Assembly: GCF_006364435.1 (NCBI RefSeq)
Contig: NZ_CP040977.1
Location: forward strand, 1,240,001-1,304,000
Length of the DNA stretch: 64,000 bases
Direction: 5' to 3'
Origin: Candidatus Methylopumilus universalis
Lineage (GTDB): Bacteria; Pseudomonadota; Gammaproteobacteria; Burkholderiales; Methylophilaceae
Shown: positions 34,818-48,905 of the stretch, piece after piece
Position numbering within the stretch: position 1 is the first letter of the stretch
Layout: every line of letters begins with the position of its first letter
Program-made: the position numbers and the translations under genes
The notes under the pieces: generated by a model
What the model saw: the letters and a program-made list of their open reading frames with translations, nothing else
The model's database searches: none
What the model was told of the DNA's origin: nothing

Positions 34818-35171
34818 ATGTCAAACCTAGAATACAACGGTCAAGTGCTTACAAACACGCGTCGCGAACTAAAACTTAAAATAGATGATATCGCAACAGA
34901 ATTATGTTTATCTGTGCAACAAGTTCAGGCGATCGAGAGCAATCGTGGTACTTTTTTTCATTCAAATAAATTAAAACAAGCAGTCATCAAGCGTTATTGT
35001 CGGTTTCTTAACATCGATATAAATGCTGTTATTACTCAATATGAAATAGATACAACTGATAATAATTTTCAAAGAGCTAAAAAGGATAGTTTAGGTAAAA
35101 GCTTTAAAAAATATCTTTATATTTTTATGGCAGCATTTATAACAACGCTCGCCTGGAAGTTCTTTGCATAA
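34818..35171 (+). CDS. RodZ-like HTH-membrane protein lacking the periplasmic domain
   Basis: A 117-residue protein with an N-terminal helix-turn-helix of the RodZ (HTH_25) type: VLTNTRRELKLKIDDIATEL, a second helix LSVQQVQAIES and a KRYCRFLNID segment matching the GflRaYArlLgld motif. It ends in one membrane helix (about residues 96-114, KYLYIFMAAFITTLAWKFF) and stops there. RodZ normally has a long linker and a periplasmic beta domain (E. coli RodZ is over 330 residues) and anchors MreB to the membrane. This short form keeps only the cytoplasmic and membrane parts. Ends one base inside the next gene (TAATG). Confidence 0.7.
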   Translation: MSNLEYNGQVLTNTRRELKLKIDDIATELCLSVQQVQAIESNRGTFFHSNKLKQAVIKRYCRFLNIDINAVITQYEIDTTDNNFQRAKKDSLGKSFKKYLYIFMAAFITTLAWKFFA

Positions 35172-35428
35172 TGCTACAAATGTTAAAGGCAATATTTTTC
35201 CGATTTAGGACTAGGCATTTTAAATTTATAGAATTCAGAAAGTCATTGCGTTTTAATACCTCTGGTTACTATCCCTATCAAATTATGGGAATTGGTGAGA
35301 GTTTTTTAATTGATAATGCAAATATAGAGGCAATTCATAAAAAACATATAACGATTAATAAAGAGTTAGGTAAAACTTTTTTAGCTAAAATAGAAGCTGA
35401 TAGTGTCCGAATAACCCGTATTAAATAA
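35171..35428 (+). CDS. Hypothetical protein, 85 residues
   Basis: Unrecognised. A basic N-terminus (IFFRFRTRHFKFIEFRKSLRF) is followed by a segment GYYPYQIMGIGESFLIDNANIEAIHKKHITINKELGKTFLAKIEADSVRITRIK that could form a small beta-rich fold. The start overlaps the RodZ-like stop by one base (TAATG), and the next gene follows after 13 bases with an AAGGAAAA ribosome binding site. The tight coupling supports a real gene expressed with its neighbours. The C-terminal end VRITRIK looks like a DNA- or nucleotide-binding beta hairpin but I would not assign this. Confidence 0.6.
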   Translation: MLQMLKAIFFRFRTRHFKFIEFRKSLRFNTSGYYPYQIMGIGESFLIDNANIEAIHKKHITINKELGKTFLAKIEADSVRITRIK

Positions 35429-35441
35429 TAAGGAAAACAAA

Positions 35442-35852
35442 ATGGAATTTGATCAAAAAGAAGAAACGCCTTTTAATATCCCTGAGAAAAAGAAAACAAA
35501 CAAAAAAACATTAGCGATTTATATTGGCGCGGGATTGATTACGATAAGCTCACTCATTTACGGTTATGCAAGTTATCAGGCGACTTATTTTAAAGATTTA
35601 GAAATTAAAAATCTTAAGGCGCAATTAGATGATGCAAGCACTAAATTACAGCGCATTGATATTCTTGAGAATCAAGTCAAAGAACTGGAAGCATCGTTAG
35701 TTGCTAAAAGTACTGCTAAACCGTCAGCAATCAAGAAAACAAAGATATTGTCTAAAAAAGAAACTAAAAAAGTAGCTCCTTCGAAAAAGGCGGCTAAGAA
35801 AACAAAACCATCTAAAGCTAAAGAAAAGAAGCCGATTAAAAAAGTAAGTTAA
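35442..35852 (+). CDS. Membrane-anchored coiled-coil protein with lysine-rich tail
   Basis: A 136-residue protein with a charged N-terminus, one membrane helix (about residues 27-46, IYIGAGLITISSLIYGYAS), a coiled-coil (about 52-92, heptads in LEIKNLKAQLDDASTKLQRI) and a very basic tail (about 95-136) rich in Lys, Ala, Ser and Pro resembling histone H1-like proteins. No enzyme motif. The gene at 45247-45570 has the same architecture on the other strand. Binding to DNA, peptidoglycan-associated polymer or lipids through the tail are all possible; nothing in the sequence decides. It ends about 35 bases before the first tRNA-Lys-half repeat. Confidence 0.72.
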   Translation: MEFDQKEETPFNIPEKKKTNKKTLAIYIGAGLITISSLIYGYASYQATYFKDLEIKNLKAQLDDASTKLQRIDILENQVKELEASLVAKSTAKPSAIKKTKILSKKETKKVAPSKKAAKKTKPSKAKEKKPIKKVS

Positions 35853-35886
35853 TCAGTGAAGTTTTTTCTTAATTAATTAGGGGAAC

Positions 35887-35974
35887 ACACCTAAGCCCTC
35901 TGCAACCCCCACAAATACTGTAAAATATTACTTTCTGGGGGATTAGCTCAGTTGGTATAGCGGCGGACTCTTAA
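35887..35974 (+). repeat. 88-bp direct repeat, copy 1 (promoter plus tRNA-Lys 5' half)
   Basis: Matches 41271-41358 in the same orientation with about 10 differences by eye over 88 bases. It begins with ACACCTA, contains a conserved CCCTCT..CAAC..CCCACAA..TACT block and a TGTAAAATATTA box, and ends at CTCTTAA of the tRNA anticodon loop. Homology stops abruptly there. The repeat therefore contains the promoter and first 38 bases of a tRNA-Lys gene. Confidence 0.85.
35937..35974 (+). pseudogene. 5' half of tRNA-Lys(CUU), degenerate, truncated at anticodon loop
   Basis: GGGGGATTAGCTCAG forms the 5' acceptor strand, U8 and D-arm start, followed by GCGGA-CTCTTAA, the 5' anticodon stem and loop with anticodon CTT. 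Compared with the second copy, the D-stem 3' side is changed (TAGC for GAGC). No 3' anticodon stem, T-arm or acceptor 3' strand follows; instead the next bases lead in 23 nt to the mtnA start codon. It cannot encode a tRNA but its promoter probably transcribes mtnA. Confidence 0.8.
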
Positions 35975-35997
35975 GTATTATGTAATTAAGGATTGTT

Positions 35998-37065
35998 ATG
36001 AAGGTTAATGGTGAAGATTTTCAGACAATATGGCTTGATTCAACTGAATCTATAATTCATATTATTGATCAAACGAAGTTACCTCATCATTTCACGACCA
36101 AACCCCTTCATTCTCTCGATGAAGTTATCAATGCAATTAAAATTATGGAAGTTCGCGGCGCTCCCTTAATAGGCGTTACCGCAGCATTTGGTATTGCATT
36201 CGCTATGAAGAATAATTCTTCAGATGATTCATTGAAAGATGCGTCATCGCGTCTTTTTCAGTCAAGGCCTACCGCTGTTAATCTTCAATGGGCACTCAAT
36301 CGAATGAATAAAGAACTGATGCCAATCACTTCTGAAAAACGTTTTGAAGCGGCATGGTCTTTATGTCAAACAATATTAGATGAAGACATTAAAACAAATC
36401 AATCCATTGGAAAACACGGACTTGATCTTATTGAAAATAATTTCAATAAAAAAACACTGCAAATATTAACGCATTGCAATGCAGGATGGCTTGCAACCGT
36501 TGATTATGGCACGGCCCTAAGCCCTCTTTATTATGCATATAATAAAGGAATTGATTTTCATGTGTGGGTTGATGAAACAAGACCACGCAATCAAGGTGCG
36601 CATTTAACAGCTTGGGAATTAGGACAACACAAGATTCCCCATACTTTAATTAGCGATAATGCTGGTGGACATTTAATGCAAAAAGGTGAAGTAGATTTTG
36701 TGATTGTAGGTGCTGATCGCATTTCTATGCACGGTGATGTATGTAATAAAATTGGTACCTATTTAAAAGCCGTTGCCGCTTTTGAAAATAACATTCCATT
36801 TTATGTGGCAGCACCTAAATCTACTATCGATAGGGATGCTACAAAAAACTTTTTTGATATCCCCATAGAATCAAGACATGAAGAAGAAGTTTTAATGATG
36901 CAAGGATTAAATAGCAATAATGAATTAACTAATATTCAAATAGCACCAAAAGGCACACGTGCGTTTAATCCAGCGTTTGATATTACCCCTCATAAATACG
37001 TCACTAAAATTATTACGGAAGATGGTGTTTATTCGCCGCAAGAATTAAAATCTATTTACTCATGA
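35998..37065 (+). CDS. mtnA: MtnA-type aldose-1-phosphate isomerase (5-methylthioribose-1-P / 5-deoxyribose-1-P)
   Basis: A 355-residue isomerase converting 5-methylthioribose-1-phosphate to 5-methylthioribulose-1-phosphate. Family signatures are VRGAPLIGVTAAFG (about residue 55), the catalytic cysteine in THCNAGWLAT (about 160), the DETRPRNQGAHLTAWEL loop, and IVGADRISMHGDVCNKIGT with the catalytic Asp (about 240). It starts 23 bases after a tRNA-Lys half and has AAGGA ahead of the ATG. The following gene is a FucA-like aldolase (overlap ATGA), not MtnB, and no mtnC, mtnD or mtnK follows, so the pathway is probably the 5'-deoxyadenosine/MTA DHAP shunt (DrdI-DrdA) rather than the universal methionine salvage pathway. 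Confidence 0.93.
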   Translation: MKVNGEDFQTIWLDSTESIIHIIDQTKLPHHFTTKPLHSLDEVINAIKIMEVRGAPLIGVTAAFGIAFAMKNNSSDDSLKDASSRLFQSRPTAVNLQWALNRMNKELMPITSEKRFEAAWSLCQTILDEDIKTNQSIGKHGLDLIENNFNKKTLQILTHCNAGWLATVDYGTALSPLYYAYNKGIDFHVWVDETRPRNQGAHLTAWELGQHKIPHTLISDNAGGHLMQKGEVDFVIVGADRISMHGDVCNKIGTYLKAVAAFENNIPFYVAAPKSTIDRDATKNFFDIPIESRHEEEVLMMQGLNSNNELTNIQIAPKGTRAFNPAFDITPHKYVTKIITEDGVYSPQELKSIYS

Positions 37066-37712
37066 AAACCTCACAACAACAATTGCTTGAATTAGCATTG
37101 CACCTTCAAACATCAGGCTTAAATGAAGGCTCTTCTGGAAACTGCAGTATTCGAGATCGTGATGGATTTTATATCACTCCTTCAGGACTTAATCCTGAAG
37201 CAATGTCTATCGATGACATGGTATTTATGGATTTTAAGGGAACGATGCAATCTGCACAAAAACCTAAACGCGAACCATCAAGTGAATGGCGTTTTCATCA
37301 TGACATTCTAAAGTCTCGCAAGGATATGAATGTGGTGATTCATACACATTCAACTTTTGCCACAACGCTCAGTCTTTTTAGAAAAGATATTCCTGCGTTT
37401 CATTATATGATCGCTGTGGCTGGAGGTAATTCAATTCGATGCAGCCCTTATCAGCTCTTTGGCACTCAAGCACTCTCTGATGCAGCCCTTAAAGCATTAA
37501 TTGAACGTAAGGCTTGTTTGCTTGCTAATCATGGAATGATTGTTATAGGTCGAGATATTGAAGAGGCATTAAATATTACACATGAAGTTGAAAGGCTTTG
37601 CGAGCAATACAGTTATGCTCTTCAAATTGGTTCCCCTGTCATTCTGTCTGATAAAGAAATGAATGAAGTTATCGAACGATTTAAATCCTACGGAAACTGG
37701 GATAAGCAATAG
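37062..37712 (+). CDS. Class II aldolase, FucA-like (probable 5-deoxyribulose-1-P / methylthioribulose-1-P aldolase)
   Basis: A zinc-dependent class II aldolase of 216 residues, very close in pattern to L-fuculose-1-phosphate aldolase: GLNEGSSGNCSIRD at residue 19, YITPSGL, PSSEWRFH with the catalytic Glu, the zinc ligands in VIHTHST (about 92-95) and the third His in ANHGMIV (about 155), then IPAFHYMIAVAGGNSIRCSPY and a C-terminal FKSYG. MtnB dehydratases differ in these stretches. No fucose isomerase or kinase is nearby; the 4-bp overlap with mtnA makes cleavage of 5-methylthioribulose-1-P or 5-deoxyribulose-1-P into DHAP plus an aldehyde the best reading (DrdA/Ald2 role). Substrate choice is inference. 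Confidence 0.87.
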   Translation: MKTSQQQLLELALHLQTSGLNEGSSGNCSIRDRDGFYITPSGLNPEAMSIDDMVFMDFKGTMQSAQKPKREPSSEWRFHHDILKSRKDMNVVIHTHSTFATTLSLFRKDIPAFHYMIAVAGGNSIRCSPYQLFGTQALSDAALKALIERKACLLANHGMIVIGRDIEEALNITHEVERLCEQYSYALQIGSPVILSDKEMNEVIERFKSYGNWDKQ

Positions 37713-37740
37713 CTATAACCGTCAAAAGTTTTGATTCTTC

Positions 37741-37762
37741 TTTAATCTAGGAGTAGATTAAA
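37741..37762. other. Perfect hairpin between aldolase and cupin genes
   Basis: TTTAATCTA (37741-37749), loop GGAG, TAGATTAAA (37754-37762): a 9-bp perfect inverted repeat followed by As. It lacks a T-run on the plus strand, so it is a poor plus-strand terminator; it could be an operator or an mRNA-processing hairpin separating the aldolase and cupin cistrons. Confidence 0.45.
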
Positions 37763-37786
37763 AAAATTTAATTGGAATATAGGATT

Positions 37787-38227
37787 ATGAAAAAACTATT
37801 TATTGATAGCGATAAAAGAAAAAAACCTCTCAAAGTGGGTGGATTTGATATCACAGTTCTTGCGTCAACTCACGATACGATGGGATATGAGATTTTTGTT
37901 CAAAAAGGCCAGGAAGGTAAAGGCCCTGGACCCCACTTCCATCCATGGGATGAAACTTTTTATATATTAAATGGCAAACTGCATTGCGGTATAGATGAAG
38001 ATGAATTTGTAGCTCTTCCCGGTACCCTTGTTCATATTCCGGGAGGTAAGACGCATTGGTTTAAATTTGGTGTAGGTGGGGCTGAATTTTTAGCTATCAC
38101 TTCAAAAGGCAATGCTTCAGAGATGTTCACCGAATTTGATAAAGGAATTAACTGGGCTAATCCAGATAAAAATAAATTAGTTGAATTAGCAGCGCAATAT
38201 AATCAGACTGTCATTACAAATAAATGA
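37787..38227 (+). CDS. Cupin domain protein
   Basis: A 146-residue single-cupin protein. Cupin motif 1 is seen as GPGPHFHPWDETFYILNG (metal-ligand His-X-His and Glu, about residues 46-63) and motif 2 as ALPGTLVHIPGGKTHWFKF (about 79-97). The ATG at 37787 has AGGA before it; an in-frame TTG at 37772 is less likely. It is not acireductone dioxygenase (MtnD), which is longer and has a different motif. It lies 74 bases after the aldolase with a hairpin between, and may act on the aldehyde or another product, but no evidence decides the reaction. Confidence 0.8.
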   Translation: MKKLFIDSDKRKKPLKVGGFDITVLASTHDTMGYEIFVQKGQEGKGPGPHFHPWDETFYILNGKLHCGIDEDEFVALPGTLVHIPGGKTHWFKFGVGGAEFLAITSKGNASEMFTEFDKGINWANPDKNKLVELAAQYNQTVITNK

Positions 38228-38243
38228 AGCGTTTAATTTAAAT

Positions 38244-40602: not shown

Positions 40603-40631
40603 AAAAAGCCACTACAAAGAGTGGCTTTTTT
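40603..40631. terminator. Bidirectional-looking terminator between the two small exported genes
   Basis: AAAAAGCCACT (40603-40613), loop ACAAAG, AGTGGCTTTTT (40620-40630), 11-bp stem with T-runs on both strands. Serves the minus-strand gene ending at 40646. Same stem sequence as the terminator at 40212-40235. Confidence 0.88.
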
Positions 40632-40645
40632 ATTTTTTACCTAAT

Positions 40646-41098
40646 TTACTTTCCACCCCATGTAAGCGAATTAAAAATTGTTGTAGATGATGCTTTTGTC
40701 ACCTTACACTTTTTTAGCCACGCATCAAATTTGGGCCAATCTTTCCAGTCAGGTGTTCTAGCAAAGTGATCTTCAACACCAGCAGGCGATTCATAAATTT
40801 CAGATAAGATAAAAACCTTTTTTCCAGTAGTTTTTGATTTCAGATCTGTTGGATTTGAGAGTTCATCCATTTCTGAAACATCATAACTTAAGAGTGCTTT
40901 TGGTCCAGAGCGGCTGTGTGTAGACTTCATCCATGTTGCATGTGAAAGAAATAATTGTTTACCTTCCTGCGATAAACTTCCAGGAGCTACGATTGTGAAA
41001 GTCAGCTTGGTTTTACCCATAGTATCTTGCTCACCAGCGAAAACTTGGTTCGTAAATGATATGAATAACAAAAACAATAAACTAGTAATTCTTTTCAT
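40646..41098 (-). CDS. Exported protein, possible dimeric alpha-beta barrel fold
   Basis: A 150-residue protein with a signal peptide (about residues 1-21, LLFLLFISFTNQVFAG). The mature part has alternating strand-helix pattern, with KVFILSEIYESPAGVEDHFARTPDWKDWPKFDAWLKKCKV near the C-terminus reminiscent of antibiotic-biosynthesis-monooxygenase-like (dimeric alpha-beta barrel) proteins. No catalytic motif is certain and the function is unknown. It has its own terminator and sits next to the Cache-domain gene with a similar layout, so both may be envelope proteins of the same accessory segment. Confidence 0.65.
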   Translation of the reverse strand: MKRITSLLFLLFISFTNQVFAGEQDTMGKTKLTFTIVAPGSLSQEGKQLFLSHATWMKSTHSRSGPKALLSYDVSEMDELSNPTDLKSKTTGKKVFILSEIYESPAGVEDHFARTPDWKDWPKFDAWLKKCKVTKASSTTIFNSLTWGGK

Positions 41099-41270
41099 TT
41101 AAATCTCCTTTTTTGATTATTAAATGTAGTATAAATTTTATAAACTAACCCTGAGCACGTTAAGCTGAGGCTATAAATTACTATATACCTATAGTTTTGC
41201 ATGTCTACAATAATTAGCATTATTTTGACGCTTTACAACACACCCCTATTCCACCCAGGCCAAAAAGCCC

Positions 41271-41358
41271 ACACCTACCCCCTCTACAACGCCCACAATT
41301 ACTATAAAATATCACTTTCTGGGGGATTAGCTCAGCTGGTAGAGCAGCGGACTCTTAA
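41271..41358 (+). repeat. 88-bp direct repeat, copy 2 (promoter plus tRNA-Lys 5' half)
   Basis: Partner of 35887-35974. Contains CCCTCTACAACGCCCACAA, a TATAAAAT box (41304-41311) about 10 bases before the tRNA start, and the first 38 bases of the tRNA. The 222 bases upstream (41099-41320) hold no gene; only this repeat is recognised in them. Confidence 0.85.
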
Positions 41359-41361
41359 TCC
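41321..41361 (+). pseudogene. 5' half of tRNA-Lys(CUU), intact to the anticodon stem
   Basis: GGGGGATTAGCTCAG plus GAGC D-stem, A26, GCGGA, loop CTCTTAA with anticodon CTT, then TCC of the 3' anticodon stem, after which the sequence TGTAAATTTAATC does not continue as a tRNA. D-arm pairing is complete, unlike copy 1. No T-arm or 3' acceptor strand is found within the next 200 bases. Start of the Old Yellow Enzyme gene follows 32 bases later. An intact tRNA-Lys(CUU) must be elsewhere if it is used. Confidence 0.8.
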
Positions 41362-41393
41362 TGTAAATTTAATCAAATTTCAAAAAGAACCTT

Positions 41394-42491
41394 ATGACAA
41401 TACATGCACTTTATAGTCCATATAATTTAGGCAATTTAACTCTCAATAATCGTTGCGTTATGGCACCATTAACGCGGAATCGTGCTAATGCAGACCGTGA
41501 ACCTATAGATATGAACGTCACTTATTATGAACAACGTGCAAGTGCTGGTTTAATCATTGCGGAAGCCACACAAATTTGCCCTGAGGGTCAAGGCTATATT
41601 TCAACACCTGGTATTTATTCTGAAGGGCAGATTCAAGGCTGGAAAAAAATTACCAACGCCGTACATCAAAAGAATGGGAAGATTTGTTTACAACTTTGGC
41701 ATGTCGGTCGTATTTCACATAGCGAACTATTACCGAATAACATTGCACCTCAAGCACCTTCAGCGATTAGGGCCAAAGCAAAAACATTTAATAGTAAAGG
41801 TTTAGTCGATGTATCAGATCCTAAAGCGTTAGAGGTTAATGAAATTAAATCTTTAACAAAAAAATATGTAGAAGCTGCTTTAAATGCAAAAAAAGCTGGG
41901 TTCGATATGATTGAAGTGCATGCGGCAAATGGATATCTGATTGATCAATTTTTAAGAGATAAAACAAATCATCGAACTGATGAATTTGGTGGCTCGATCG
42001 AAAATCGTGCGCGCTTTTTGTTAGAAGTGATCGATGAAATTATTAAGGTATATCCAGCCAATTTAATTGGTTGTCGAATTTCACCTGCATCCACATTTAA
42101 TGACATTGATGATTCAGATCCACAAAGCTTATATAGCTATGTCGTGTCTGAATTAGGTAAACGAAAAATTGCTTATCTCCATATCATTGAAGGTGAAACA
42201 GGTGGGCCTCGAGATGCCAATCCGAAAGTTAATTTTGCTGAGTTGAAAAAATTATTTAAATCTCATGGTGGCATGAATATCATGACAAACAATGGTTATC
42301 ACAAAGCCATGGCTGAAAGTGCGATTGATAATAACGAAGCTGATCTTATTGCTTTTGGTGTGCCTTTTCTTGCAAATCCAGATTTAGTTAATCGGTTGGA
42401 GAATAATTATCCGCTTAATAAGCCTGATCAAAAAACATTTTACGGTGGCACAGAAAAAGGTTATACCGATTACCCTTTTTATAGCAGTTAG
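41394..42491 (+). CDS. Old Yellow Enzyme family NADH:flavin oxidoreductase (NemA-like)
   Basis: An FMN-dependent ene-reductase, 365 residues, reducing activated C=C or nitro compounds. The TIM-barrel signatures are the N-terminal VMAPLTRNRA, LQLWHVGRISH (about residue 100), the substrate-binding pair in EVHAANGYLIDQFL (about 180, His and Asn), TNHRTDEFGGSIENRARF and near the C-terminus DLIAFGVPFLANPDLV. It resembles the NemA/glycerol trinitrate reductase branch. The ATG at 41394 lies just beyond the second tRNA-Lys half, whose promoter may drive it. It converges with a small membrane gene with a 4-base overlap. Confidence 0.9.
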   Translation: MTIHALYSPYNLGNLTLNNRCVMAPLTRNRANADREPIDMNVTYYEQRASAGLIIAEATQICPEGQGYISTPGIYSEGQIQGWKKITNAVHQKNGKICLQLWHVGRISHSELLPNNIAPQAPSAIRAKAKTFNSKGLVDVSDPKALEVNEIKSLTKKYVEAALNAKKAGFDMIEVHAANGYLIDQFLRDKTNHRTDEFGGSIENRARFLLEVIDEIIKVYPANLIGCRISPASTFNDIDDSDPQSLYSYVVSELGKRKIAYLHIIEGETGGPRDANPKVNFAELKKLFKSHGGMNIMTNNGYHKAMAESAIDNNEADLIAFGVPFLANPDLVNRLENNYPLNKPDQKTFYGGTEKGYTDYPFYSS

Positions 42492-45246: not shown

Positions 45247-45570
45247 TTATTTCTTTTTAGAAGCTTTATGTGCTTTATGAGATTTTTTATTCGCCTTAGT
45301 TTTAGCTGAAGCTTTTGCTGGTGCAGATGCTTTTGTTTTTGTTGCTAATTTTGCTTCTAAATTTTTTACTTCCGTCTGAAGCGCCTTATTTTGATTGATC
45401 AGCTCTTCATTTTGAGCAGCCTGATCGGTTAATACTGCCACTTGATTTTGTAATACTTTAATTTCGCCTGCTTGATCGGTAATTTTATCCTGTGCATTGT
45501 AAGCCGTGAATAATGAGCCTACTACAATAACGCCAGCAACTGCATACTGCACAATTGTTTTAGTTTCCAT
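45247..45570 (-). CDS. Membrane-anchored coiled-coil protein with lysine/alanine-rich tail
   Basis: A 107-residue protein: one membrane helix (about residues 8-26, QYAVAGVIVVGSLFTAYNA), a coiled coil (about 30-75, EIKVLQNQVAVLTDQAAQNEE) and a Lys/Ala/Ser tail (about 76-107) with histone H1-like composition. Same architecture as the gene at 35442-35852 but no clear end-to-end sequence identity, so either convergent or fast-diverging paralogues. Convergent with the epimerase gene by one base. Function unknown; possibilities are nucleoid or envelope tethering. Could also be a general small stress protein. Confidence 0.7.
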   Translation of the reverse strand: METKTIVQYAVAGVIVVGSLFTAYNAQDKITDQAGEIKVLQNQVAVLTDQAAQNEELINQNKALQTEVKNLEAKLATKTKASAPAKASAKTKANKKSHKAHKASKKK

Positions 45571-45703: not shown

Positions 45704-47536
45704 TCATTCAACCGTGACAGACTTTGCTAAATTGCGTGGCTTATCTACGTCTGTACCTTTAATAAGAGAAACATGGTAAGCCAATAATTGAACTGGGATA
45801 GAGTGGATAATCGGGGACAAAACACCTGTATGTCTTGGGGTTCTTATTACCCGCACACCAGGACTTTCCAAAAAATGACTGTCAGCATCTGCAAATACAA
45901 AAATTTCTCCGCCACGCGCCTTGACTTCTTGCATATTAGATTTTACTTTTTCGAGTAAATTATCATTTGGTGCAATGACTACGACTGGCATATCGTTATC
46001 TACTAACGCTAAAGGGCCATGCTTTAATTCACCTGCGGGATAAGCTTCTGCATGAATATATGAAATCTCTTTTAATTTTAATGCTCCTTCCATAGCAATG
46101 GGGTAATGAATACCTCTGCCTAGAAATAGCGCATGTTTCTTTTTAGCAAATAATTTTGCCCACTCTTTAATTTGTGGTTCTAAATTCAGTGCTTGTTGAA
46201 TACTGCCTGGTAACTGTCTCAAATTTTCTAGATAGCTTTTTTCCTCTGTTTTATTAATCAGCTTTTTAAAAGAAGCAATCGTGACTGCTAAACTAAAGAG
46301 AGATACTAATTGTGTCGTAAAAGCTTTAGTTGATGCCACACCAATTTCAGCCCCCGCTCTGGTATATAAAACAAGCTTCGATGCCCGCGCAATAGCGCTT
46401 TCTTGAACATTACAAATTGCTAAACTTAAATGCTGGCCTAAAGATTTGGCATGCTTTAAAGCTTCCATCGTATCTAAGGTTTCGCCAGACTGCGAAACAG
46501 TGAGTATCAATTGATTGGGATTAGGCACCGAATCTCGATACCTGTATTCACTTGATATTTCAACGGTGGTTGGTATTTTTGCAATACCTTCTAACCAATA
46601 CTTAGCTGTGACTCCTGCGTAATAACTTGTCCCTGCCGCCAAAATTAAAATACTATCTATTTTAGAAAATACATCTTTAGCGTCTTGTCCGAACAGACTT
46701 ACATCAAAATGACCTTCATCAATAATGGCTTCAATTGTATCTGTCAATGCGCGAGGCTGTTCATAAATTTCTTTTTGCATGAAGTGATCATATGGGCCTA
46801 GCTCCATGGAAGACAAAGTAACGTCACTGATATGTGTTTTGCGTGTAATCAGTTTTTTTTCTTTGTCGAAAATTTGAATACCATCTTTTTTAACTTGCAC
46901 AACATCACCGTCTTCAAGATAGATCACTTTTTTAGTGACCGCCAAAAGCGCTGAGATATCAGATGCAATGAAATTCTGTGTATCACCTAATCCAATAATG
47001 AGTGGGCAACCTAATCTCGCGCAAATCATTTCATCAGGATTTTTGAGAGAGATCACCGCAATAGCAAAAGCTCCTCTTAATTCGTGACCTAACATTTGCG
47101 TTGCTTCTAGAAGAGATTTATTTTTATGTTTAATAAAATAATGAATGAGGTGTGCAATAACTTCAGTATCCGTTTGTGATTCAAACTTATACCCTAGTTT
47201 CTTAAGGCGCTCACGCTCTTCCTCATAATTTTCGATAATGCCATTATGAACGACTGCAATTTCTCCTTCAGACACATGAGGATGCGCATTGAGTTCAGTG
47301 ACGCCTCCATGCGTTGCCCATCTTGTATGGCCTATGCCTAAAAATCCTTCTAACTTTTGATCTTTCACCATAGTTTCAATTTCAGCGACACGGCCTACAG
47401 ATCGAACACGCTCAATACCGTTTCGCAATACCGCAATACCTGAAGAATCATAACCACGATATTCGAGTCGACTTAATCCTTCGATTAAATTTGGAACGAT
47501 ATTTTTATTTGAGATTGCACCTACAATGCCGCACAT
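45704..47536 (-). CDS. glmS: Glutamine-fructose-6-phosphate aminotransferase GlmS
   Basis: Makes glucosamine-6-phosphate for peptidoglycan and LPS. The ATG at 47536 puts the nucleophile Cys at position 2 (MCGIVGAIS), as required after Met removal; a longer in-frame reading lies inside glmU and is rejected. 610 residues, with the N-terminal class II glutaminase domain ([15 protein letters not shown]), two SIS domains ([26 protein letters not shown]) and the C-terminal [12 protein letters not shown]. glmU ends 4 bases upstream, so glmU-glmS form one operon. Confidence 0.97.
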
Positions 47537-47540
47537 ATAT

Positions 47541-48905
47541 TTAAGTCTCTTTATTTTTTGTAGGTTTAGTCCAACCAGAAATACTGGTTTGTTTTGAACG
47601 AGCCACCGTAAGATCTCCTGGAGGAGCATCTTTAGTGATGGTCGATCCTGCCCCAATCGTGGCGCCCTTACCAATTTTCACTGGGGCCACCAAAGCAGTG
47701 TTTGAGCCTATAAAAACATCATCTTCAATCTTAGTGGGATGTTTATTAGCACCATCATAATTACATGTTATGGTCCCGGCACCGATATTCACCGATTTAC
47801 CTACAAGACTGTCGCCCACATAACTTAAGTGATTGATGTTGGTGTGATCATTAATTTCGCTATTTTTAATTTCAACAAAATTTCCAATGTGCACATGGCT
47901 TTGAAGCTTCGTACCGGGTCTCAATCTTGCAAATGGACCAATACGACAATGACTACCCACTTTACTTTCATCAATATGTGAATAAGGTTCAATCGAGGAG
48001 TGGTCTCCGATAATGCTATCTTTTATATGTGAGTAGGCTGCAACTTTCACGTGATTACCTAGAACGACCTTGCCTTCAAAAATGCAACCCACATCAATCG
48101 TCACATCTTTTCCTGCTGTGACTTCGCCTCTAATATCAATGCGGCTTGGATCTATAATCGTGACACCTTGGTCCATCAATGTTTTTGCTGTCATAAGCTG
48201 ATAGTCTCTTTCCATGTTTGCTAATTCAGATTTCGAATTAATCCCGGTAATGGATACTTCATTATCCGCAGATTCACTTAATACTTCAATGTTATCTTCA
48301 ATAGATAGCCCTACAATATCTGTCAAATAATATTCTTTTTGAACATTCTGATTGGTCAGCCTTTTAAGCCAATTTTTTAAGAGATGATTGGGCGCGCACA
48401 TAATGCCCGTATTAATTTCTTTGATATTTTTTTGTGATTCATCACAATCTTTTTCTTCTACAATTTTTTGTATTCGGTCATCTTTCCTTACAATTCTGCC
48501 GTAGCCTTTTGGATCTTTTTTTGAGTAAGTTAGAACAGCTAAATTTTTTTGACCTTTTATTACTAGGCGTTCAATCGTTTTTTGGTCAATTAACGGTACA
48601 TCGCCATATAAGATGAGTGTATTACCCTCATCTTTGATTAAAGGAGCGGCTTGTTGCACAGCATGACCTGTGCCTAATTGTTCTTTTTGCTCTACCCATT
48701 GAATATGGGGAGATGGAAATGTTTTTTTGACGAGATCACCACCATATCCATAAACCACCACAAGCTCTTTGGGCTTGAATGACATAGAAGCATCAATGAC
48801 ATAACCGAGAAGCGGTTTATGAGCAAGCGGTTGCAAGACTTTGGGTAAATCAGAACGCATGCGCGTCCCTTTGCCTGCAGCTAAAATCACAATAGATAAA
48901 GACAT
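47541..48905 (-). CDS. glmU: Bifunctional UDP-N-acetylglucosamine pyrophosphorylase / glucosamine-1-P acetyltransferase GlmU
   Basis: The last two steps to UDP-GlcNAc in one 454-residue protein: N-terminal uridyltransferase with [20 protein letters not shown] (residues 7-25) and the C-terminal left-handed beta-helix acetyltransferase with repeated hexapeptides (about 250-430; for example [12 protein letters not shown] and [13 protein letters not shown]). Start at 48905 lies 41 bases after the atp terminator, so it needs its own promoter; a palindrome occupies that spot. Ends 4 bases before glmS. Confidence 0.97.

Follow-up and report, generated by a model that had tools for sequence, protein, structure and literature searches.

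Three open reading frames between an SDR gene and mtnA

The window, by which we mean the whole 64,000-nucleotide stretch analysed here, spans positions 1,240,001-1,304,000 of the 1,304,290-base single-contig genome of Candidatus Methylopumilus universalis, a streamlined freshwater methylotroph. Three open reading frames, whose coordinates we confirmed, lie in it between a short-chain dehydrogenase (SDR) gene on one side and mtnA on the other. They encode proteins of 117, 85 and 136 amino acids, to which we refer as the stub, the small protein and CC. The features of the locus are as follows.

34818..35171, + strand: stub, a 117-aa RodZ-type HTH protein with a predicted C-terminal membrane helix (tail anchor), periplasmic domain absent
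35171..35428, + strand: small gene, 85 aa, with residues 30-84 assigned to the phage 'VGDSF' small-protein family
35429..35434, + strand: TAAGGA, a ribosome-binding-site-like sequence of the CC gene, also present where the stub/small pair is missing
35442..35852, + strand: CC, a 136-aa single-pass membrane coiled-coil protein, predicted N-in

The stub and the small gene overlap by one base as TAATG, a coupling that the first-pass annotation had described and that recurs with identical spacing in 7/7 genomes. By pairwise dN/dS, the three open reading frames appear to be genuine genes subject to purifying selection, with ranges of 0.07-0.25 (stub, 6 genomes), 0.13-0.35 (small gene, 6 genomes) and 0.03-0.12 (CC, first 90 codons, 7 genomes, where 5 of 21 pairs were too divergent for a value). 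No Shine-Dalgarno sequence is visible upstream of the stub. A search of the region with the sigma-70 consensus returned 3 promoter-like sites against 5.7 expected and 0 terminators, and an Rfam search for RNA elements gave 0 matches. Among named records that contain the small gene the nearest is Candidatus Methylopumilus universalis MMS-RIV-52, which matches the DNA here at 92.9% over 2,878 bases.

The stub/small pair is optional and CC stands without it

The stub/small pair is present in 7 of the 16 genomes of the genus and CC in 13, while the small gene and CC were found in 0 of 171 other genomes of the bacterial family, representing its other 23 genera. The three genes had been annotated as a single cluster; as such the cluster is largely not conserved. 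Six of the 13 CC genomes lack the pair, whereas none of the 7 pair genomes lacks CC, which directly follows the pair in all of them. Among the pair-less genomes, some of which are drafts, CC adjoins SDR in G014 and G003, dsbA in G002 and G008, and other genes in G011 and G012; the junction itself was seen in the first four, and G014 and G003 have clean empty sites between SDR and CC. TAAGGA precedes CC in 12/13 genomes and GGAG in the thirteenth. Gains and losses of the pair numbered 3 on a dsbA+CC tree (11 genomes) and 2 on a CC tree (13 genomes), trees in which few branches are supported. The small gene is frameshifted in G006; in G009 a frameshift hits the stub and leaves the small gene intact, but G009 is a draft assembly, so this frameshift may be an error. 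Since 2 of the 7 pair genomes carry a damaged copy of one gene or the other, the stub and the small gene may at times do without each other.

The small protein carries a bacteriophage-family domain

The 85-residue gene had been reported as unrecognised. On the basis of sequence comparison, its residues 30-84 belong instead to a widespread, uncharacterised bacteriophage family with the motif YPxxMxVGDSFLVP...GVRVWR. In tblastn against phages, the small protein matched 16 records at E <= 10; the match to one of these had E 3e-3 and covered residues 34-84. This phage protein together with one relative led to 44 viral contigs with the VGDSF family. Because these contigs were found through two short blocks that include VGDSFLV, the invariance of VGDSFLV among them reflects how they were selected. 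A phage-family profile built from 24 of the 44 contigs and the two phage records (26 members) aligned with the Methylopumilus profile over residues 30-84 with an hhalign probability of 97.4 and E 1.3e-11. In hmmsearch with single sequences, 6/6 orthologs scored at E <= 1.3e-5 and 0/3000 shuffles scored below E 8. The converse search, through 2,675 viral ORFs, yielded 42 matches at E <= 1 (best E 6.5e-11), and all 25 among the matches listed are in the family. The YP-x-x-M-x-[VI]-G-[DE]-S-F-L block is present in the small protein as YPYQIMGIGESFL, and KTFLAKIEADSVRITRI aligns with the C-terminal KF..R....GVRVWR block, with T in place of W. Membership is defined by the profile built here, with no curated model over its cut-off: the small protein had 0 matches in Pfam at E <= 10, none in NCBIfam or PADLOC, and in PHROGs a weak match to phrog_10287 only (E 0.049).

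Residues 30-84 share the pattern YP..M..G.SFL...F.....R. with the phage 'VGDSF' proteins (phrog_10287, phrog_7597 and DUF7303, PF23978). They differ from them in reading IGESF for VGDSF and RITR for RVWR, and in the first 29 residues, which are specific to Methylopumilus and for which our searches found no match beyond the genus. The genes also differ in their setting, since the small gene is chromosomal and lies behind an HTH gene whereas its VGDSF relatives are carried in phages. A RodZ-type HTH was found in none of 46 viral loci with the VGDSF family (profile used, E <= 0.01), so the stub/small partnership is known only here. Close relatives of the stub and of the small protein were likewise not found in viral contigs; the stub had no match in phage records in a close-relative search, and the small protein none in plasmid records. 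The VGDSF family is common in phage contigs (L074-L123), where its neighbourhoods are varied, with no constant neighbour by eye. A literature search of main texts found no paper naming DUF7303.

The fold predicted for the small protein, at moderate confidence (mean pLDDT 63.8), is a short helix followed by strand-helix-strand-strand. Its best viral matches in Foldseek are small phage proteins annotated without a function (best E 6.3e-4, one at E <= 0.001), and a fold search of the PDB returned many designed proteins (best E 0.057). We rejected an amphipathic, membrane-binding N-terminus, the hydrophobic moment being at most 0.31.

The stub is a RodZ-type HTH protein that ends with a predicted membrane helix

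The stub matches HTH_25 (PF13413) at E 3.1e-9, with 36.9 bits against a cut-off of 24.6, and ends with a hydrophobic segment at residues 100-116 preceded by a basic flank of net +5; the RodZ_C domain (PF13464) is absent. The earlier description of a RodZ-type HTH and a membrane helix without the periplasmic domain therefore holds. Given the hydrophobic end and the basic approach to it, the stub is best read as tail-anchored, with membrane anchoring and a cytoplasmic HTH predicted from these features. Its structural model, of six helices plus a helix at 94-116, has a mean pLDDT of 46, and this low confidence made it too poor for a fold comparison. In PADLOC, the stub weakly matches HTH_VI (E 4.8e-6), a match that a general XRE-type HTH could give.

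Four genes in the genome exceed the HTH_25 cut-off, namely the stub, a full-length RodZ and two short ones. Downstream of the short gene of 96 aa come a membrane protein and an AraC-type HTH, and that of 81 aa has an AraC-type HTH directly after it, both AraC labels being given by reading of the sequence. Other genomes of the genus hold further short HTH_25 genes, four of which are followed by an XRE-like HTH. HTH_25 followed by an AraC-type HTH recurs as a unit at loci L004, L031 and L044, and HTH_25 followed by an XRE-like HTH at L029, L037, L038 and L039. In a tree of the HTH, the stub orthologs come together in a single clade (99/94) next to the XRE-partnered short group (95/59) and apart from full-length RodZ. 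As this tree has 68 columns and a single branch, that of 95/59, carries the link, the grouping of the stub HTH with other short RodZ-type HTH genes rather than with full-length RodZ is suggestive only. The separate clades in the same 68-column tree led us to set aside an origin of the stub by recent truncation of full-length RodZ.

The full-length RodZ of the genus is divergent

A check for a full-length rodZ elsewhere, as proposed in the first-pass annotation, found a divergent RodZ of 310 aa with HTH_25 at 1,123,917-1,124,849 (L003:1480-2412), which rules out the stub as the genome's only RodZ. RodZ_C had no match in this genome at E <= 1 and none in the 16 genomes of the genus at E <= 0.001, a threshold that it passes in 138 of 187 genomes of the bacterial family, from 23 of its 24 genera. 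Compared over RodZ_C with typical RodZ, of which 4 of 20 sequences were captured, the genus RodZ initially gave a weak match (prob 29.7, E 5.6e-4). Profile-profile comparison of the C-terminus of the Methylopumilus full-length RodZ with that of the sister genus g15 gave a probability of 98.6 and E 1.3e-15, and the HTH tree unites the Methylopumilus full-length RodZ with the g15 set (98/87). RodZ proteins of g15 reach RodZ_C, over the cut-off in G074 and G090 and below it in two scanned proteins (E 0.0014-0.0018). By these sequence comparisons the full-length RodZ of the genus is a divergent RodZ that has drifted beyond the RodZ_C model. MreB is present in the genome (E 6.3e-144). In a literature search of main texts, Methylopumilus and RodZ occurred together in one paper, a review on another subject.

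The chlamydial RodZ CT009 is described as having no periplasmic domain and as requiring Y66 and F70 for MreB binding (PMC4047632). These residues are reported to correspond to F60 and Y64 of E. coli RodZ (PMC4047632, PMC6946637). When the stub profile was compared with solved structures, CT009 (PDB 4gqm) came closest, at a weak E of 0.28 and with an ungapped alignment. The stub has L52 where CT009 has Y66, and V56 where it has F70, given an offset of 7 between chain and paper numbering that we infer from the aromatic pair. The stub orthologs have L52 and V56 as well, the aromatic MreB-contact residues thus being replaced. Typical Methylophilaceae RodZ has F at the second contact site in 20/20 sequences, in a search whose pattern required F, Y, M or H there, and at the first site 5 of them carry F and the other 15 carry I. 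In the sister genus g15 the two sites read F and C, and in the full-length RodZ of the genus they are M54 and S58. Loss of the aromatics is therefore not peculiar to the stub and alone does not exclude MreB.

CC is predicted to reach into the periplasm

CC has an N-terminal membrane segment at residues 23-39, a heptad-repeat stretch and a tail with 20 lysines in 48 residues, in line with its first description as a membrane coiled-coil protein with a lysine tail. The net charge is +3 before the membrane segment and -1 after it. Positive charge on the N-terminal side of the helix points to an N-in orientation, in which the coiled coil and the lysine tail are predicted to be periplasmic. This predicted placement of the tail speaks against the nucleoid tethering that had been offered as an explanation.

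The Pfam models of FtsL and DivIC score CC at E 0.027-0.028, with 14.7-14.8 bits against cut-offs of 24.6-28.9. Like proteins of the DivIC/FtsL type, CC would have a short cytoplasmic N-terminus, one membrane helix and a periplasmic coiled coil; unlike them, it ends in a long lysine tail and scores far below the cut-offs. A second small membrane coiled-coil protein, of 107 aa with 12 lysines in its last 33 residues, is encoded at 45247-45570 on the - strand and is a distant relative of CC by its match to the CC profile (E 3.8e-5).

By published markers the locus lies in an island, and a tRNA-Lys repeat follows it

The tycheposon island fGI-3 is reported to start at tRNA-Met(CAT), to hold xerD and to end at glmS, and repeats of the tRNA-Lys(CTT) end are reported as the hallmark of the additive island fGI-2 (PMC10872708). 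In this genome, tRNA-Met(CAT) is at 1,140,553-1,140,629, a tyrosine recombinase at 1,147,368-1,147,886, and a gene that reads as glmS-like at 45704-47674 of the window. By those markers the locus is inside fGI-3.

A tRNA half had been noted after the three genes. We identify it as the 38-base 5' half of tRNA-Lys(CTT), downstream of CC at 35937-35974. It is part of a direct repeat of 89 bases, 89% identical between 35886-35974 and 41270-41358, made up of some 50 bases and the tRNA-Lys(CTT) 5' half, which breaks off right after the anticodon loop. The repeat is of the type published for fGI-2, found here away from fGI-2 and, by the markers above, inside fGI-3. Nothing in the same-species stretch L077 matches 35877-38230 or 40609-42401. 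Elsewhere, tRNA-Lys half repeats flank the unit of short HTH_25, membrane protein and AraC-type HTH (G000:C1:636797-639490, which is L158, and also L159, L160 and L161), and in G061 and G010 intact tRNA-Lys(CTT) genes lie beside such a unit.

Weighing the explanations

The first-pass annotation had proposed a three-gene cytoskeleton- or nucleoid-tethering module. The genes are adjacent and on the same strand with short gaps, two of them encode membrane proteins, and CC directly follows the pair wherever the pair occurs. However, six of the 13 CC genomes are pair-less, two with CC at the same site after SDR and two with it beside dsbA; CC has its own ribosome site, and its charge flanks put the lysine tail in the periplasm. 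We regard such a module as highly improbable. Since the pair is optional and CC independent, the three-part tether to the cytoskeleton is not supported, and what is left of a cytoskeletal role, that of the stub, is weakened by the lost aromatics and the separate full-length RodZ. That remaining role would make the stub a shortened working paralog of RodZ that binds MreB at the membrane in the manner of CT009. Its HTH_25 match over the cut-off, the weak match to CT009 as the closest solved structure and the presence of MreB fit such a paralog. Chlamydial RodZ has no periplasmic domain (PMC4047632), and E. coli RodZ 1-142 or 1-155, with most of the periplasmic domain gone, is reported to keep cells rod-shaped (PMC6946637). 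The stub resembles RodZ in having HTH_25 and one membrane helix after a basic linker, but it has no RodZ_C, ends in its membrane helix and groups apart from the full-length RodZ of the genus. It resembles CT009 in its RodZ HTH and membrane helix, yet it has L and V in place of the Y66 and F70 that CT009 needs to bind MreB, typical Methylophilaceae RodZ having F at the second site in every sequence counted, and it comes as an optional addition to a full-length RodZ encoded elsewhere. The M54 and S58 of that full-length protein suggest that the contact may have changed in the lineage. On balance we consider an MreB-binding paralog unlikely.

An HTH protein that controls a small phage-derived effector, in a toxin-antitoxin-like or anti-phage pair, would accord with an overlapping, optional two-gene unit, placed in an island by published markers, with a partner from a phage family and a weak HTH_VI match in PADLOC. 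The frameshifted stub beside an intact small gene in G009, a draft, is hard to reconcile with a small protein that is toxic alone; the small protein has no PADLOC match, and phage records hold no match to the stub, nor plasmid records to the small protein. Judged on these sequence data, a pair of this kind is quite unlikely. We think it very unlikely that the pair consists of decaying, functionless leftovers of an integrated element. A broken gene in 2 of 7 genomes and a patchy distribution would suit leftovers, but the dN/dS values of both genes and the TAATG spacing kept in every pair genome argue against decay.

Alongside the gene structure, homology, purifying selection and clean presence or absence between SDR and CC observed here, the reading we prefer, and consider plausible though slightly short of probable, is that two independent units stand side by side. 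One would be an optional two-gene operon of about 0.65 kb serving as an accessory membrane-tethered regulatory cassette. In it, the stub would be held in the inner membrane by its C-terminal helix with the RodZ-type HTH facing the cytoplasm, and the small protein, whose translation begins at the overlapping codon, would join a genus-specific basic N-terminus to the phage-family domain. The two proteins might cooperate at the membrane as an accessory regulatory pair, a less supported step suggested by their coupling; the HTH may bind a protein or nucleic-acid partner, with the small protein as its modulator or cargo. A regulatory role is proposed by analogy with the other short HTH genes, and the pair would be cargo that the island gained or retained, not a part of the core MreB machinery. 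The other unit would be the genus-core CC, whose rod and lysine tail would reach into the periplasm and there contact anionic envelope polymers.

More speculatively, and in our estimate unlikely, the RodZ-type HTH may have escaped its tie to the cytoskeleton in these bacteria and given rise to a set of short proteins, often encoded on islands, each of which opens a small cassette. The stub would then have gained a tail anchor and become coupled to a phage-family protein, as an undescribed membrane-tethered regulator or phage-response device.

In this small-genome freshwater lineage, several short accessory genes have arisen from an HTH domain of cell-shape proteins, and the full-length RodZ has lost the usual MreB-contact residues. 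A common, uncharacterised phage domain now has a chromosomal host version that appears to be under selection and has a constant operon partner, which makes the function of the phage domain testable.
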